DNA from: an uncultured Mycoplasmatota bacterium
GTDB taxonomy: Bacteria; Bacillota_I; Bacilli_A; RF39; UBA660
NCBI GenBank assembly: GCA_946497375.1
Contig: CAMMKE010000020.1
Coordinates: 1-16,602 of the forward strand
Reading direction: 5' to 3'
Length of the DNA stretch: 16,602 nt
Part shown: positions 3,236-16,535 of the stretch, piece by piece
Position numbering within the stretch: position 1 is the stretch's first letter
Layout of the letters: each line of letters starts with the position of its first letter
Notes under the pieces: generated by a model
Database searches by the model: none
What the model saw: only the letters and a program-made list of their open reading frames with translations
Told to the model about the DNA's origin: nothing
Made by a program: the position numbers and the translations under genes

Positions 3236-3829
3236 CTATACTTTCCTATTACCTAATTTTAAAACTCTTTCATTCGCTTTCGCAATTTCTTCTTTTCTTT
3301 TATAATCATTTTCTAAAGCTATTTCAAGAAAATACTTTTGATCTAAAAAACGTTCAACTTTATAAAAATCTCTATTCTTCTCTAATTCATCTAACTCTCT
3401 TTTAATTATTTCATCTTTAACATAATTTTCTTTATATTCAAAGTTAAATATTTGTAAATATTCTTCTAAAGCTTTTAAATAATCTGGACTATTATTTTCC
3501 CTTAAAAATGTATCTATTTCCTTAAAACTAATTATATCCTGGTCATAATTAATAGATGTTAATGGTTTAATAAACGGACTTTCTTGTAAATATATTTTAT
3601 AAGTAGCAGGATAAACTTTCTTTCCTATCTTTCTTTTATCCTTTAATTTAATTTTTCTTAAATAATTATCATTAACTGGTATTAATCTATCAGTTATATC
3701 AACTACTCTATTACCAAAGCTTGTAGAGATTTTTTCTGTAATAAGATTAAAATCACTTTCTAAATAACTAATGTTATATAAACTTAAAACTCCTTTATTA
3801 GGTAAATAAAATTCTTTTTTAATTTCCAT
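3236..3829 (-). CDS. Hypothetical protein, tandem paralog 1
   Basis: I do not recognise this family. The 197 aa protein is charged and rich in Lys, Glu, Tyr and Asn, with no signal peptide or membrane segment visible, so it is probably cytoplasmic and largely helical. It is a tandem paralog of the gene just upstream (3842-4528). Both open with MEI(K/R)KEFYLPNKG and the shared block Y(N/D)ISYLESDFNL. Both carry a block with FNFEY at about residues 121-154, and both end with a helix of the form (R/S)NER(V/I)LKLG. The region between about residues 37 and 95 shows little similarity and differs in length. The start is clear: AAAAGGAGAAAATT before ATG, nearly identical to the paralog's site. The stop is TAG. 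The gap to the paralog is only 12 bp, so they are co-transcribed. Confidence 0.85.
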   Translation of the reverse strand: MEIKKEFYLPNKGVLSLYNISYLESDFNLITEKISTSFGNRVVDITDRLIPVNDNYLRKIKLKDKRKIGKKVYPATYKIYLQESPFIKPLTSINYDQDIISFKEIDTFLRENNSPDYLKALEEYLQIFNFEYKENYVKDEIIKRELDELEKNRDFYKVERFLDQKYFLEIALENDYKRKEEIAKANERVLKLGNRKV

Positions 3830-3841
3830 AATTTTCTCCTT

Positions 3842-4528
3842 TTATTTATTAATACAACCTAATTTTAAAATTCTTTCATTAGATTTCGCCATTTCCTGTT
3901 TTCTATGATACTCTTCTTCTATCTGTTTTTCAAGAGAATACTTATTACTAAATAGATTACTAAAATCACTCTTAATTATTTGATTTAACTCTTCTTTAAT
4001 TAAATCTTCTTTAGAATAAACTTCTCTATATTCAAAATTAAAAACTTTTAAATATTCTCTTAGATATTTTTGATATTTATCTATATTATCACTATTTAAG
4101 AAACTAGCAATTTTATCAAAGGTAACAATATTAGTAGGAAATGTTAGTCCATATAGACTTTCTTGATAAGTTATAGAATTAGTATTAATTTGGTTAAATA
4201 ACTGTAAATAAGACTGGTAATTATAATCAATAGGAGTTAAATATTCTATAAATTCATCTTCTAGCATAGTATCTTTAAACATATAAAATGGTTTTTCCTT
4301 CTTTTCTTCACTTCTTGTTTTTAAATCAGAAAAAATCATTTTCAAATCATTATCTTTAAATGAAGGCAATTTACTATTAATAGAATTATAAAGTTCTTTA
4401 GAAGCCTCACATTTTAAACTATCAGAAATATTTTTTATAACTAAATTAAAATCACTTTCTAAATAACTTATATCATATAAACTTAAAATTCCTTTATTAG
4501 GTAAATAAAATTCTTTTCTAATTTCCAT
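3842..4528 (-). CDS. Hypothetical protein, tandem paralog 2
   Basis: This 228 aa protein of unknown function is the longer member of the tandem pair with 3236-3829. The N-terminal 37 residues and the C-terminal third align well with the neighbour (LKVFNFEYRE against LQIFNFEYKE; NERILKLG against NERVLKLG). The central part is about 30 residues longer and Tyr/Ser/Asn-rich, and does not align by eye. No signal peptide, membrane helix or catalytic motif is visible. The ATG follows AAAAGGAGAAAATC. A candidate -10 (TATAAT, 4557-4562) lies 28 nt upstream. The pair may have arisen by gene duplication followed by rapid change of the centre, but no function can be given. Confidence 0.85.
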   Translation of the reverse strand: MEIRKEFYLPNKGILSLYDISYLESDFNLVIKNISDSLKCEASKELYNSINSKLPSFKDNDLKMIFSDLKTRSEEKKEKPFYMFKDTMLEDEFIEYLTPIDYNYQSYLQLFNQINTNSITYQESLYGLTFPTNIVTFDKIASFLNSDNIDKYQKYLREYLKVFNFEYREVYSKEDLIKEELNQIIKSDFSNLFSNKYSLEKQIEEEYHRKQEMAKSNERILKLGCINK

Positions 4529-4556
4529 GATTTTCTCCTTTTATTTATAAATATCC

Positions 4557-4562
4557 ATTATA
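4557..4562 (-). promoter_or_regulatory. Possible -10 element for the tandem paralog pair
   Basis: TATAAT on the minus strand, between the end of the broken zinc-ribbon gene and the start at 4528. There is no convincing -35 at 16-18 nt and no TG extension, so this is a weak call resting on a perfect -10 and on position. Confidence 0.35.
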
Positions 4563-4571
4563 CCGTTTCTA

Positions 4572-4818
4572 TTACTTAATAATATTTGATACTCTTTTTA
4601 AAACTTCTTTATTTTCAACGATTTCTTCTATATCTTCATACTCACTTAACTCTGTAAAATCATCTATAGAGTGAATATAACTACGTTTTAAATAGCTGTT
4701 ACCACCATCTACACTACAACAACCGCATTTACAACTAACAAAGTCGTGAGGGTATTTTGAAACTATAATATCTTGGCACCAAATTACACTTTATTGAGTT
4801 TTTAGTAATTCTTTTCAT
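4572..4818 (-). pseudogene. Frameshifted small zinc-ribbon protein (DUF7695-like)
   Basis: An ATG at 4818 with a good Shine-Dalgarno (GAGGTG, 7 nt away) opens MKRITKNSIKCN. The frame then goes wrong in a TTT run (minus strand, forward 4781-4783) and meets TAG 27 codons from the start. Removing one T restores an 81 aa frame ending at TAA (4572). This reads CNWC at 11-14, then SKYPHDFVSCKCG, then SVDGG and SYLKR. The arrangement CxxC, HDF, CxCG, VDGG, Y-x-x-R followed by an acidic tail is the layout I know for the small DUF7695 family, a probable zinc ribbon of unknown role. Both halves agree with one family, so a single-base insertion (real or a sequence error) explains it. It lies 54 nt after the radical SAM gene in the same orientation. 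The family assignment is from memory. Confidence 0.75.
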
Positions 4819-4872
4819 TTCTTAACACCTCATTTAAATATTTATATTGTAAATAAAATATTTATTCTAAAA

Positions 4873-5993
4873 TTAATTATATACATACCCTTCTCCATTT
4901 ATTTTAATTATTTTTCCTCTTTTCTTTAAAACCTTTGAATATATTCTAGTATGTTCTTCAATTTTTTCAGAACTTAATTGTGGAAAAGAATTTGAATTAA
5001 TAAAAGGAGAATTAGTATATCTATTTATATCTACCCTATATGGATCTAATTGTTCTAACACATCCAAAGTTCTTTTTACATCTTCTATATTTTCAGTAGG
5101 AAAGCCAGAGATAATATTCAAATATAATTTTTTATATTGATATTTTCTTATATTTGTTACAAACTCAATTATCTCATCACTTGTAAACCCTTTCCTAATA
5201 AGGTTTAATATTCTATCACTACCTGACTCTAACGATCCACATAGTTCTCTAACTTTTGAACTTTCTCTAATGTATTTTTCAAAATCGTTTTTTATCGCAT
5301 CTTTAAATGAAAAACCAGATAAACTAACACTTTTAATATTCTTTTTGTCCTCTAAATATTTAATTAATTCTTTTAGCATATAATCATTATAAAGATCAAG
5401 ACCATATTGACATATATTTGTTGCTTTTAAAATAAGTTCTGAATAATTTTGTTCGTCTATAATATCAATATATTCTTTAACCTCATTTATATCAGCACTT
5501 TTTAAAGGCATTTTTTGAAAACTTACCTTACAAAAAGAACAATTATTTTGACATCCTGTCGCTAAATACATTACTGCTGTTTTTCCGTCTCCATAAACAA
5601 ATCCAAAATCATTCTCATCTAAATCGCCATAAAAATCTTTTGAAATTAACTTAAGTAACATATTAGGCTTAGTATTAGGAATAATATAATCTATATGTTT
5701 ATTTAGCCATTTTTTATACGTATTTAATTCAGGATTATCTATAAACTCTCTAGTAAGGCATCCTGTTAAATAAACTTCTGCTTTCTCTTTTTTATCTTTT
5801 AATACAGAACTAATATAGTTAAGAGTGTATAAAATATGAAATTTTGTACAACTACAAGTACTAGCAAAAATTATTTTATCTGCTTCTTTAACATTATCAG
5901 TAATTTGGAAATTTTCTAATAATTTATTGTATATATATATGTATATTGATAATTTAAACCACAATTTATATCATTTCCAATAAAAATTTTCAT
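4873..5993 (-). CDS. Radical SAM methylthiotransferase-like protein, 5' end out of frame at an AT repeat
   Basis: This resembles MiaB/RimO-type methylthiotransferases, which use two iron-sulfur clusters to thiomethylate tRNA or ribosomal protein. The radical SAM triad is CQNNCSFC, and later blocks SLESGSDRILNLIRKG and GFPTENIEDV fit the family. The auxiliary-cluster domain shows its second and third cysteines in FASTCSCT and VYLTGCL. The first cysteine is missing from the continuous frame, which opens only at a poor TTG (5964). An ATG at 5993 overlaps the stop of the U32 gene (ATGA), has a GGGGGGAAAG ribosome site, and encodes MKIFIGNDINCGLN, supplying that cysteine. It runs out of frame at an (AT)5 repeat (forward 5931-5940). 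One AT unit fewer joins both parts into 372 aa. No TRAM domain is visible at the C-terminus, so the substrate is uncertain. The gene may be broken, switchable or misread. Confidence 0.8.
5930..5940. repeat. AT dinucleotide repeat at the frameshift point
   Basis: Eleven alternating bases, (AT)5 plus one T, lie within the 5' end of the radical SAM gene. With five units the upstream ATG (5993) is out of frame and ends at TAG; with four units it is in frame with the rest. Gain or loss of three units would keep the given phase, so only some lengths restore it. Confidence 0.8.
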
Positions 5994-7987
5994 AACTTTC
6001 CCCCCATAAAATAAACATTATCAAACTCTAACTCTTTCTCATCTAAATTAATGCTATAACTGGAATTAATATGAGTACATCTTCCATCAAAATATACTTT
6101 AAACTTATCATTTCTTACATTACCTAAAGTATAAGGAGTATCTTTATCTATATTTAAGATATTACCTTTAATTAACATTATTTCTACATAACCTTTAGTT
6201 TTAATAATTAAGGGAATATTACCAAACCTTTTTCTAATAGATTCTATTAAGTCTTTTAACTCTATATTATTAAGCTCTACTGATAAAGTAATGGCTTTAT
6301 ATCCTAACTTATAAAGATAATAGGCAGTATATGAATTAAAGACATTTAAATGATATGAGGCGATTACATCAGCAGTTGGTCTAAATAAATTACTAACAAT
6401 ACTTTTATCTTTTAAAACATCTTTTAGATAAAATGGATTTCTTTCTACTTCCTTGTAACTATCTAAGTCTATTATCTCTTTAGTATTTATTTTATCAAAA
6501 GTTACTTCTTTAATAATAGGTTCTTTATAATCATTAAGACGCTCTCCTATTAATCTTTCTGATAAAGTTCTTCTTGCAATATTTAAATCACCTATTCTAA
6601 TAAAGATATCTTCATCCATATCTATATTTATATGTTTAGTAATAAATGGAGTATTACCTAACTTTTCTAACTGACTAATTAATCTATCTTTAGATATAGG
6701 ATTATTAATAGATTTCTCTACTATGCTACCTCTATAAGTAACTGTATGTTTTAAATCACTAAAAGTTAGAACAAACTCTTCTCCTACTTTGGCTTTTACA
6801 TCTATATTAATAGGTACTTTTCTTGTAATGGTAAAATCTGTTATTTCAAGAGATTTATCTGTAGTCTTTCTAACTTCATCTAGACTAGTTAATTTAACTT
6901 TATTATCGACTTCAACTATTTGTTTAGAGTTACCTTTATTAATTAAATTATCTTTCATGTCATAGAGATAATTAACAATCATTCCTTTATTACTTTCCCT
7001 AAATCTAATACCATCTCCTTGTAATAAAGTTTTATCTAATTCTATTCTAATTCTCTCATCATTGACATCTATAACTTTACCTAAATGTCTTCCTAAATGA
7101 TTAGGACTTTTTTTATTAATTAAATCTTCATCATTAAATAAATGTCCTTTAGTAAAACCTCTATAAAACATACTCTTTAAGTCTTCTAAATCTTTAGTAG
7201 AAAGTTCTTCCCCATCAAGTATTTTACGATAATACTTAGTAATAAAACCTACATAAGATGGGCTTTTCATTCTTCCTTCTATTTTAAGACTAACAACATT
7301 ACGAGGTAACTTCTTAATACCTGCAGAAGTATTTAACTCTTTCATAGATAAGAGATATCCTTCATCAATTAGAGTTTTATCTTTATATAATTTATAAGGA
7401 AGTCTACAACTACCAACACATTCTCCTCTATTACCACTTCTACCTCCTAACATTGAGCTAAAAAGGCAGTTACCAGAATAACTTACACATAAGGCTCCAT
7501 GAATAAAGACTTCTAGTTCTATAGGTATATCTATTTGTCTTATCTCATCTATACTCATTTCTCTTGGAAGCACTACTCTTTTTACTCCCATAACATAAAG
7601 AAGTTTAATAGTCTCATAACTACTACTATTAACTTGAGTAGAAGCATGTATTACTAGATTAGGATACTTTTCTAGACATAAAGATATCATACCAAAGTCT
7701 TGCATTAAAATAGCATCTACTCCTAGATTATATAAAAACTCTACTTCTTTAAGAAAATCTTCCACTTCATTTTCTTTTACTAAAGTGTTCATCGTTACAT
7801 ATATCTTAATGCCATAGATTTTACCTAGTTTTAAGACTGTTTTTAACTCATCCTCTGTAAAGTTTTTAGCATAACTCCTTGCCCCAAACATTTTACCTGA
7901 TAAATAGACTGCATCTGCCCCATTATTAAGTGCCGCATAAAATGAATTTATATCTCCTGCTGGTACTAATAGTTCCATAAATATCAC
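5990..7987 (-). CDS. U32 family protein, RlhA-like RNA hydroxylase with DUF3656-type domain
   Basis: Proteins of this family were first called collagenase-like peptidases, but characterised members (RlhA, TrhP, UbiU/V) are Fe-S enzymes that hydroxylate 23S rRNA, tRNA U34 or quinones using prephenate-derived or O2-independent chemistry. The N-terminal barrel starts MELLVPAGD. The U32 signature EVFIHGALCVSYSGNCLFSS spans 159-178, and four cysteines (167, 174, 190, 194) fit the cluster ligands. At 665 aa with a long second half it matches the RlhA layout better than the shorter YrrN/YrrO type. The first codon of the longest frame is GTG; I prefer the ATG at 7978 (Met4), because GTGAT in front looks like the 3' part of the Shine-Dalgarno and homologs start MELL. 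The stop is TGA, overlapping the next ATG. A promoter lies at 8016-8044. The exact substrate is not determined. Confidence 0.9.
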   Translation of the reverse strand: MIFMELLVPAGDINSFYAALNNGADAVYLSGKMFGARSYAKNFTEDELKTVLKLGKIYGIKIYVTMNTLVKENEVEDFLKEVEFLYNLGVDAILMQDFGMISLCLEKYPNLVIHASTQVNSSSYETIKLLYVMGVKRVVLPREMSIDEIRQIDIPIELEVFIHGALCVSYSGNCLFSSMLGGRSGNRGECVGSCRLPYKLYKDKTLIDEGYLLSMKELNTSAGIKKLPRNVVSLKIEGRMKSPSYVGFITKYYRKILDGEELSTKDLEDLKSMFYRGFTKGHLFNDEDLINKKSPNHLGRHLGKVIDVNDERIRIELDKTLLQGDGIRFRESNKGMIVNYLYDMKDNLINKGNSKQIVEVDNKVKLTSLDEVRKTTDKSLEITDFTITRKVPINIDVKAKVGEEFVLTFSDLKHTVTYRGSIVEKSINNPISKDRLISQLEKLGNTPFITKHINIDMDEDIFIRIGDLNIARRTLSERLIGERLNDYKEPIIKEVTFDKINTKEIIDLDSYKEVERNPFYLKDVLKDKSIVSNLFRPTADVIASYHLNVFNSYTAYYLYKLGYKAITLSVELNNIELKDLIESIRKRFGNIPLIIKTKGYVEIMLIKGNILNIDKDTPYTLGNVRNDKFKVYFDGRCTHINSSYSINLDEKELEFDNVYFMGGKL

Positions 7988-8015
7988 TGTCTTTCTATTA
8001 ATTTAATACATTTAT

Positions 8016-8044
8016 ATCATACAAGATATTAATAATTTAGACAA
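8016..8044 (-). promoter_or_regulatory. Promoter of the U32 / radical SAM transcript
   Basis: The minus strand has TTGTCT (8039-8044), a 17 nt spacer and TATGAT (8016-8021), a good sigma-A match. It lies directly after the terminator at 8045-8075 and would start transcription near 8009, about 30 nt before the preferred ATG. Confidence 0.65.
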
Positions 8045-13241: not shown

Positions 13242-16200
13242 TTAATCTTTAAATAATTTGTATACTTCCTCTTGCAGCTTTGTTTCCATAGTAGAATAAT
13301 CTTTTTCTTCCTTTGCTAAATTGTGAATATTTTTGGAAAGATTAGAAATACTAGCATGTAACTTATTATTCTTGTCAAATTTTGGTATAGCCACATATTT
13401 AAGTACATCCACACCTCTATTGGTAGATACTGCATATCCATCTATAACGGCTGTAACATTAGGTGAATTAATTATTCCACAAACATAATATGCCTCTGCC
13501 TCATCATATACATCCAACATTAAGACTTTCGAGTCAACAACAATTGGCTTATCCTCTGAAAAAATATTAGGATTAGGATTTGGAATGCTATTATAGTAAG
13601 TACTAACCACAACAGCAGCCATACTTCCCGTTTGTTCTTTCCATAGTACTTTATATGGAGAATAAGTATATTCACCAACATTATCAAGTCTATAAAAAGG
13701 CTGAGTATTTGGATTGAAGAATTTTCCATTTTGTATTCTAGTTTTCAATAGTTCATCATGATAAAAGTCTAGCCATTGATAAGTTTCAGGGCATTCCTTA
13801 GCAAGCTCTTCCTCTGGAATTCCATACTTATAATGTGGTGTATGTGGAACAAGCATAAATTCATTTGATTTTACTTTCCACTTAGCAATATTTCTTCCGC
13901 CCAACATTGGATAAATATATTTTTCTTCTATTTTACCTTTATTTATTCCTTTATCTATAATATCTTGTCTTCTTTGTCTAGTAATATCATTTTCTATTTC
14001 CAACAAACCATTATTAGATTTATGCGGTTCTTTTAAAATATAAACACCTTTTGCACCAGCTGGTTCAATACCTTTTCTGCCCTTATAATATCTTGGTTTA
14101 CTGCTATCCAAAACATTATTAGCAAAAGTCATATCATTCAAAGTTAGCCATGCTGATTGTTTGTTATTCATATCTACTGGTTGTGCTGATAAAACTTCTA
14201 CTGATAATTTTTTTCTAACATCTTCCCAATTAGAATGTGTATCTATTTTACTCTTTCTTCCGATTTGAGAAAAAACATTATAATCATTCATCGGATATTT
14301 CATAACTTCACCTTTTTTAAATTTAATAGCAACTGCTGGTATAGTAAACAGACTAACATTTGAAAAGTCATGAACACTTGAAACACTAAAAGGTATGTTT
14401 TGATTGTTTCTGATTATTTCAAACTTTCTAAATCCTTCGCCACCTTTTGTTGATTTCAGAAATGAGGCTGGTAATAGAAATACCATAGTTCCATCATTTT
14501 TTAGATATTGGTCCAACGAAACATATGTAACTGCCATTCCAAAATCATCATGTGTTGTTTTCTTGTCATATGCATTTTTTTCAAAAATTCCATAACTTTG
14601 CCAGATAGCCAGAGTTCCCTCACGATAACTTTTACTCATTGATTTCCAAGCAATCCATGGTGGATTTCCGACTACAAAGTCAAACTTATTGCCAATCATA
14701 GTAGGAGCAAAACTATTTTTCAAGATTATAGGCCAGAAAGAATCTTTTCCACTTCTATGTAATACATATAATTTATCAAACAACTCTTTTACAACCGGCA
14801 AATCATTTTCTTTTATAAGTTTCTTACCCAACATTAGATTTTTAAAGACTTCATATTTAGGTTTTTCATGTATAAAATAACTCAATTGTTTTAAAAACTC
14901 ATTACATTTTTTAAAACTTTCAAACTTAGGAAGTTCTAACTTCCCAACAGATGTTGTTAATTTAAGGGTATCTCCGTTTTCTTCCGTGTATACAACAGGA
15001 GATAATATTGAATCGGCAATAAATACAGGAATACTTACAGGATTTCCAAATTCCTCATCACAATTATCAAAAAAAGCAGAAAACATTATTAATATATAAT
15101 TTGCTTTGGCTGATACAACAGAAATTGGATTAATATCAAAGCCAACAATATTATTAGTTATTTTTACAATATCTTCTTTCGTAAGAATACCTTTTTTCTT
15201 TAGGATTATCCGTTTAATGGATTGAGTTAAAAATGAGCCTGAGCCTGCACAAGGATCAATTAATGTTTTATCTATATTTCCATCATAACCAGCCATATCT
15301 AATACATGTTCAACAATCCAATCTGGTGAGAAATATTCTCCCATTAAATGTCTCATTTCTGATGGAATTAATTCCATATATACTTCTTGTAAAATATCTT
15401 GTACATTTTCTGGTTTTAATACAAAAGTACTTAAATCAAATTTATCAATTATTTTTAAAGTATCGTTTACTATTTCTTCTTCAAACCCACTGTCCGTATA
15501 AGTAAACCATTCCATAAAATGAGCTTCAAAAAAGTTATCTACTAAGTTAGTTCCATAATCATAAGTACCATCAAATAAACTATCTATTTCGGCTTTAGAC
15601 AATTCTTGTTTTGTGCAAAATCCCGGATTCACAAGTTGTGATAAGAATGAATAGATTAGTAACTTTAAGAATATATTAAAAAATGTTTGCATTGAAAATA
15701 AATACATTTTACTATTTATTTCAATATCATCTTGCATTCCATATGTTTCACGAATCTTAGAGGTAACTTCTGTAAAATCTGTTGCCTCCTCATCCTCACC
15801 ATACATTATTCCGAAAACACGATCCCATTCATTATATAAGGTTCTAACACGATTACTTCCATCCATATTATTTAAATTAAATTCTATTTCTTTGTATGTA
15901 TTTAAGATACACTTTCTTACAAACTTACTTTTTGTATTTAATACTGCAAGTAAGTTTTTCTTATTTAATGCTCTTTTATCTTGTTGTTTTAATATTAAAT
16001 ACAATCTCTTTAATCCTGATTGAAAATCTTTAATTTCAAAATGAAAATCAAGATTTAAATTTAATTCAATTGATATACTTACTTTAGATGTATTTAATAT
16101 ATTCTTCTTGCTGGATGGAATAAACCTTGCAAAAATGAATTTTCTTCCATCAAAGCCTACACCAATACCATTTAGTAATTTCCTAGTAATATCATCTATA

Positions 16201-16535
16201 TTGTCCTTCTCATTAATATCGGCATTACTTATTAAATAGTCATATAACCCATGGTCTTTATCATCTCGACCATATAAAGCCTCATTAACACCTGATTCAT
16301 TTGAGAATTTATTATCTTTTTTTAATTCAAAAGTAATATTTTGAAATGTTGCATCAGTTCTTCCTCCAGCCAATAAAATATCTTCACTTTTATACTGATT
16401 TGCCATTTCAGGATTAAACTTTTTTAAAATAGGCTTAATTATATCTGAATGAAAATGAATCTTAATATCATCTTCATTATTAAAAATATTACTCTTAAAC
16501 TCTTGTTCTATTTTTTTGAAGTTCATTATATCCAT
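13242..16535 (-). CDS. Type IIG restriction-modification enzyme (nuclease, N6-adenine methyltransferase and specificity in one chain)
   Basis: This protein of up to 1097 aa should both cut and methylate DNA at its own recognition site (Eco57I/MmeI-like plan). The N-terminal PD-(D/E)xK nuclease shows RTDATF then ITFELKK, with Asp61, Glu70 and Lys72. A helical connector follows. The methyltransferase has GEYFSPDWIVEHVL (399-412, motif X), DPCAGSGSFL (427-436, AdoMet motif I), GFDINPIS (465-472) and catalytic NPPW (624-627), which indicates adenine-N6. From about 720 to the end is the target-recognition and specificity part (GRKGIEPAGAKGVYIL near 819; AVSTNRGVDVLKY near the end). The first ATG (16535) abuts GGAAGG; the ATG at 16526 (Met4) has AAGGA at a proper distance and is the better start (1094 aa). 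All key residues are present, so it looks active. An extended -10 promoter lies upstream, and no separate subunits are seen. Confidence 0.92.
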   Translation of the reverse strand: MDIMNFKKIEQEFKSNIFNNEDDIKIHFHSDIIKPILKKFNPEMANQYKSEDILLAGGRTDATFQNITFELKKDNKFSNESGVNEALYGRDDKDHGLYDYLISNADINEKDNIDDITRKLLNGIGVGFDGRKFIFARFIPSSKKNILNTSKVSISIELNLNLDFHFEIKDFQSGLKRLYLILKQQDKRALNKKNLLAVLNTKSKFVRKCILNTYKEIEFNLNNMDGSNRVRTLYNEWDRVFGIMYGEDEEATDFTEVTSKIRETYGMQDDIEINSKMYLFSMQTFFNIFLKLLIYSFLSQLVNPGFCTKQELSKAEIDSLFDGTYDYGTNLVDNFFEAHFMEWFTYTDSGFEEEIVNDTLKIIDKFDLSTFVLKPENVQDILQEVYMELIPSEMRHLMGEYFSPDWIVEHVLDMAGYDGNIDKTLIDPCAGSGSFLTQSIKRIILKKKGILTKEDIVKITNNIVGFDINPISVVSAKANYILIMFSAFFDNCDEEFGNPVSIPVFIADSILSPVVYTEENGDTLKLTTSVGKLELPKFESFKKCNEFLKQLSYFIHEKPKYEVFKNLMLGKKLIKENDLPVVKELFDKLYVLHRSGKDSFWPIILKNSFAPTMIGNKFDFVVGNPPWIAWKSMSKSYREGTLAIWQSYGIFEKNAYDKKTTHDDFGMAVTYVSLDQYLKNDGTMVFLLPASFLKSTKGGEGFRKFEIIRNNQNIPFSVSSVHDFSNVSLFTIPAVAIKFKKGEVMKYPMNDYNVFSQIGRKSKIDTHSNWEDVRKKLSVEVLSAQPVDMNNKQSAWLTLNDMTFANNVLDSSKPRYYKGRKGIEPAGAKGVYILKEPHKSNNGLLEIENDITRQRRQDIIDKGINKGKIEEKYIYPMLGGRNIAKWKVKSNEFMLVPHTPHYKYGIPEEELAKECPETYQWLDFYHDELLKTRIQNGKFFNPNTQPFYRLDNVGEYTYSPYKVLWKEQTGSMAAVVVSTYYNSIPNPNPNIFSEDKPIVVDSKVLMLDVYDEAEAYYVCGIINSPNVTAVIDGYAVSTNRGVDVLKYVAIPKFDKNNKLHASISNLSKNIHNLAKEEKDYSTMETKLQEEVYKLFKD

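Follow-up and report, generated by a model that had tools for sequence, protein, structure and literature searches.

A frame break at a short AT tract in a methylthiotransferase-like gene of an uncultured Mycoplasmatota bacterium

The window analysed here, a 16,602-nucleotide stretch of DNA from an uncultured Mycoplasmatota bacterium, carries a frameshift at an (AT)5 tract near the 5' end of a gene for a predicted methylthiotransferase (MTTase)-like radical SAM enzyme. The most likely reading, to which we assign a probability of roughly 0.6, is a recent slippage frameshift that inactivated an optional, accessory gene. The added unit would have arisen by slipped replication at an AT tract present by chance, once the gene block had already spread among these species. 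The extra unit breaks the frame some 21 codons in and ends it at a TAG; translation would then yield a peptide of 25 residues but no enzyme, since neither a credible start codon nor the first cluster cysteine is left in the remaining frame. The outcome would be plain loss of function, whether the mutation is fixed or still segregating; loss of a unit could in principle reverse the frameshift, with no sign of selection as a switch.

The frame break and the predicted enzyme

The features under study are collected in Table 1. On the minus strand, the U32 open reading frame (ORF) ends in ...AAG TTA TGA and shares bases with the ATG at 5993–5991, directly 5' of which lies the stretch GGGGGGAAAG; the overlap of this ATG with the U32 stop and the accompanying ribosome site, both claimed in an earlier note on this DNA, were thus found. 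Translation from the ATG at 5993 gives MKIFIGNDINCGLNYQYTYIYTINY and ends at the TAG at 5918–5916, 12 bases beyond the (AT)5 tract. This is the MKIFIGNDINC start running into (AT)5 and TAG that the earlier note had described, the TAG lying just outside its interval of 5928..5993. In the alignment at the tract, the window carries two bases more than each of three close relatives (the siblings L001–L003). The remainder of the gene is open in the other frame, one AT unit away as had been proposed, and the relatives are one unit shorter and intact. Residues 8–363 of the 363-residue TTG-started ORF (5964–4873) match the siblings, and its first seven residues fall outside the match. The claim that the first auxiliary-cluster cysteine is cut off and the other two remain also held: Cys11 lies 5' of the break, while Cys46, Cys78, and the CxxxCxxC motif (147/151/154, P0001 numbering) lie downstream of it. 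After the tract, 3–5 non-synonymous and 7–9 synonymous codons of 356 differ between the window and the siblings, suggesting that the break is young.

Table 1. Coordinates of the features discussed, numbered from the first letter of the window.
Feature	Position	Strand	Remarks
ATG start of the MTTase-like gene	5991..5993	-	Overlaps the U32 stop (ATGA); same protein position in 10/10 genome copies
25-codon frame MKIFIGNDINC...TINY	5916..5993	-	Terminates at TAG 5918–5916
Codon of Cys11, first auxiliary-cluster cysteine	5961..5963	-	5' of the frame break; aligns with the MiaB cysteine
(AT)5 tract	5931..5940	-	Site 2 bases longer than in 3 siblings
Remainder of the MTTase-like radical SAM gene, other frame	4873..5964	-	363 codons from an unlikely TTG
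U32-family gene (Peptidase_U32 + DUF3656), upstream	5990..7987	-	ORF and Pfam
Hypothetical 228-residue protein	3842..4528	-	Shares the exchanged block with the MTTase-like gene
High-identity block, window against all three siblings	~3950..6020		97–100% from 5876 to 4077; 93–99% at the edges

The gene product, about 372 residues long, is a predicted methylthiotransferase-like enzyme with an MTTase fold that lacks TRAM. A radical SAM core with CxxxCxxC was found (Pfam Radical_SAM, 55.1 bits against a cut-off of 29.5), and its cysteines are kept in nearly all aligned relatives (Cys147 in 110/113, Cys151 in 111/113, Cys154 in 111/113). The intact relatives have an N-terminal UPF0004 domain with the three cluster cysteines (Cys11 in 108/113 aligned rows, Cys46 in 103/113, Cys78 in 109/113), from which the window's continuous frame is missing Cys11. 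UPF0004 was matched at E 0.01 or better by 41 of 42 aligned proteins, a set that takes in four more distant MTTases (P0114–P0117); P0001, the closest protein-database cluster, itself scores 24.0 bits, below the 27-bit cut-off. A C-terminal TRAM domain was matched in one of the 42 at E 0.01, and not in P0001. In line with the lack of TRAM, MTTase structures already span model residues 1–361 of 372; together with the conserved cysteines they bear out the earlier assignment to an MTTase-type enzyme.

The assignment stops short of the known families. The window frame scores 126 bits against the TIGR00089 cut-off of 251, with the intact sibling copies also below the curated cut-offs, and it does not reach the cut-offs of the NCBIfam equivalogs for MiaB, MtaB, and RimO proper (75.8/355.3, 122.9/357.1, and 90.4/357.0 bits); the intact G001 copy scores 77.6, 123.0, and 93.8 bits with the same three models. 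The siblings' other MTTases include MiaB over the cut-off in 3/3 and MtaB in 2/3, suggesting that the MTTase-like gene encodes an additional enzyme. P0001 had no family at E 0.1 in PADLOC and PHROGs, and a literature search for MTTases without TRAM returned no paper.

Intact relatives and the exchanged block

In a scan of genome contigs, the three siblings (MAGs of uncultured Bacilli, Bacilli, and Tenericutes) shared 99% protein identity with the window, and a Candidatus Culexmicrobium profundum MAG shared 25%; on these matches the window probably comes from a related uncultured member of the Bacilli of gut type. All three siblings have an uninterrupted 372-residue frame; the close-relative comparison comprises these three genomes. 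The AT run at the site has four units in two of them and five in L001, where a C-to-T change lengthens the run and the frame is kept, showing that the frame is not set by run length alone. Four units in all reads and relatives was the earlier note's criterion for a sequence error, and among the relatives it is borne out in part: each sibling has two bases fewer than the window, and two have four units, but the third has five, in frame.

The gene is sparsely distributed, and the copies found were open. In the genus of L001 it is present in 4 of 35 genomes (E < 1e-150) and intact in all four; in a draw of 386 genomes from the family it is present in eight, including G001 and G003 (E < 1e-80), again all intact, after five of 13 matches had been excluded as other MTTases (28–33% identical, with open frames of 426–492 residues, one with an internal TAA). 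Ten different genome copies (G001, G002, G003, G019, G263, G416, G292, G095, G400, and G153) have a single open frame from residue 1. P0001, which represents 195 member sequences, is likewise intact. At the Cys11 column, 108 of the 113 relatives in the alignment have Cys, five have a gap, and none has another residue; the alignment is doubtful for the fragment P0095, one of the 108. As a separate observation, the database relatives P0113, P0052, and P0104 have only the N- or C-terminal part although their longest contigs are 13–45 kb; these may be further broken copies of the accessory gene.

The window and the siblings are far more alike over the high-identity block than over U32, gatA, gatB, and RelQ. 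At fourfold sites, 3 of 85–87 differ from the siblings in the MTTase-like gene, compared with 47–54 of 170–177 in U32 and, against L001 and L003, 35–43 of 116–123 in gatB; DivIVA and SepF are intermediate (3–6 of 38–40, with 3/39 and 6/40 against L001). The block, which consists of the MTTase-like gene and most of the 228-residue protein, next to a U32 gene that is mostly 83–94% identical, is the predicted product of a recent gene exchange among these species. The complete block occurred in just two of the 386 family genomes, G001 and G003 (98–99%), G002 being outside the draw. In a sample comparing G001 with G003, 63 of 416 pieces of 500 bases were at least 97% alike, suggesting that gene exchange is common in the genus; given these pieces and the fair likeness of DivIVA/SepF to L001, the idea of the block as something unusual was weakened.

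The frame break is probably younger than this recent exchange, which would explain why the rest of the gene is undecayed; the lack of decay is therefore no evidence for a switch.

The surroundings of the gene vary. Several members of the genus have U32, then relatives of the 228-residue protein, then gatC, and in the window and the siblings the MTTase-like gene sits between U32 and the 228-residue protein. Across the genus, the stretch from U32 to gatC (window 3236–5990; L169, L170, and L173–L188) may contain the MTTase-like gene, a single paralogue or a pair of paralogues of the 228-residue protein, or different ORFs; in L169 and L170 the ORF after U32 is presumably Fic-like, as judged by eye. 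The 228-residue protein is broken in L003, where an A run (8014–8020) has lost one base, and its 3' end in L002 is swapped for unrelated sequence after about 7993. A conserved operon with U32 was rejected, because among nine loci U32 adjoins the gene only in the three siblings, as in the window. At the six other loci (L072–L077) none of 11 other window proteins was matched at E 1e-6 and the neighbours differ, L075 ending at a contig end. A search of viral contigs for the site found nothing. Elsewhere in the window, at 13242–16535, a large ORF gives a near full-length match to a type IIG restriction-modification model (PADLOC PDLC03625, 1097 bits).

Competing explanations and the AT tract

A sequence or assembly error, with the extra AT absent from the organism and the gene intact, is the second-ranked explanation, and we regard it as possible though unlikely. 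It agrees with the ten in-frame genome copies and with the undecayed downstream frame, a feature that would also be explained by an error or a switch and in this respect counts against a loss-of-function frameshift. However, 10 of 14 other window ORFs have a gap-free alignment, with the frame unbroken, to one or more of the siblings, and no break was seen on the window's side (the remaining four had no proper counterpart in the compared loci), and 33 homopolymer runs of at least six bases lie within eleven open window ORFs; both results argue against an indel-prone assembly. A gain of two bases in a 10-base tract is, moreover, an uncommon short-read error.

The earlier note had proposed a possible phase switch, in which slipped-strand changes of the AT tract alternately silence and restore an enzyme that modifies RNA or the ribosome. 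We consider this highly improbable, and no less so for the tract as a low-rate genetic switch, across strains, of an extra MTTase-like enzyme acting on tRNA, the ribosome, or another target. The tract does lie close to the 5' end with the frame set by one unit, and both states occur when the window is compared with the siblings, but the open state is found in 10/10 genome copies and a substitution has altered the tract in G001 (L001, five units) without a change of frame. The window's (AT)5 tract is not more than chance: the expectation is 0.41 per window at 28% G+C, and 64 of 200 shuffled windows had at least one. Nor is the repeat kept as a repeat in homologues, since in the seven distant copies, which do not belong to the sibling group, the first 90 bases contain no run of at least four AT units. 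With five units, the tract is also short for high-rate slippage, falling below the minimum of six dinucleotide units required by PhasomeIt for Campylobacter (PMC6321876, in excerpt); rates under about 1e-5 are described there as potentially inefficient for switching. Excerpts of a comparison of four H. influenzae genomes describe eight loci of five dinucleotide units, seven of which varied without a change in length, and give 9–11 TA units for the known dinucleotide switch of that species (PMC2651432). A DNA methyltransferase dinucleotide switch has been described with 10 and 12 AG units, on the switch's side of the ledger (PMC3498834, in excerpt).

In 391.8 kb of G001 there are 80 AT tracts of at least four units, five of at least five, one of at least six, and none of at least seven. 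Over the whole genomes a ten-base AT pattern had 14 (G001), 10 (G002), and 17 (G003) matches, some overlapping; from the overlapping matches, G001 and G003 each have one run of about eight units, which is in favour of a switch. Between the G001 and G003 samples, tract length was equal in 77 of 83 sightings with conserved flanks, the 16 of 99 sightings with poor flanks being left out; at two loci (four sightings) the difference is a single base in the flank, and at one locus, picked up from each of the two genomes, the tract has four units in one and five in the other. The last case, also on the side of a switch, indicates that AT length changes do occur in the genus. At this locus (L079/L116) the tract appears to lie between a ribosome site and an ATG, as read by eye, and the unit change would alter spacing, not frame. 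Of the 35 genus genomes, 33 have MutS and 33 have MutL over the cut-off, G001–G003 being among them in both cases; the presence of these mismatch repair genes counts against a switch, and the idea that slippage is fast because mismatch repair has been lost was rejected for the siblings. A switch, if real, would make this an example of phase-variable methylthiolation. In the open-licence literature, with subscription journals mostly outside it, we found no paper on phase-variable, slipped-strand tRNA-modifying enzymes and none on a phase-variable rRNA methyltransferase frameshift; the terms "phase variation" and "methylthiotransferase" co-occur in one paper, PMC12593503. Of the readings in the earlier note, its fallbacks of an error or a fixed mutation agree better with the data than its switch does.

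Residual expression of the longer allele, through the downstream TTG or through ribosome or polymerase slippage, to give some enzyme or a shortened protein, is the least likely explanation, for although a TTG-started 363-codon frame is present and slippage by one AT unit during transcription or translation would restore the frame, the TTG product lacks Cys11, which is never replaced by another residue in the aligned relatives, its first seven residues lie beyond the sibling match, the next in-frame ATG (Met111, from P0001) comes after all three cluster cysteines, and a classical slippery site was not seen by eye.

Comparison with known systems

As it stands, a recent loss-of-function frameshift here is one more frameshifted accessory gene and carries little weight; the gene itself points to a small, patchy subfamily of TRAM-less MTTase-like enzymes among uncultured Bacilli, in addition to the MiaB and MtaB that their relatives possess. 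Young pseudogene alleles arise by slippage in short repeats, and the window allele resembles them in its single short-repeat indel, accessory gene, intact relatives, and little other decay, with no difference seen. The enzyme differs from MiaB, MtaB, and RimO of the TIGR00089 superfamily in that neither the window frame nor the intact siblings reach the curated cut-offs and P0001 is without TRAM. Its cluster cysteines are spaced X34/X31, compared with X35–36/X32–33 in excerpts of an MTTase review (PMC5352715). The frame break is like that of the mod gene of M. mycoides, where, in the excerpted report, a change of dinucleotide units in the coding region (12 AG units in the parent and 10 in a progeny clone) likewise leads into a frame with a nearby stop (PMC3498834). 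Unlike the long AG repeat of mod, which according to the same excerpts is kept in several homologues, the tract here has 4–5 units, and no run of at least four units is present in the distant copies (PMC3498834).
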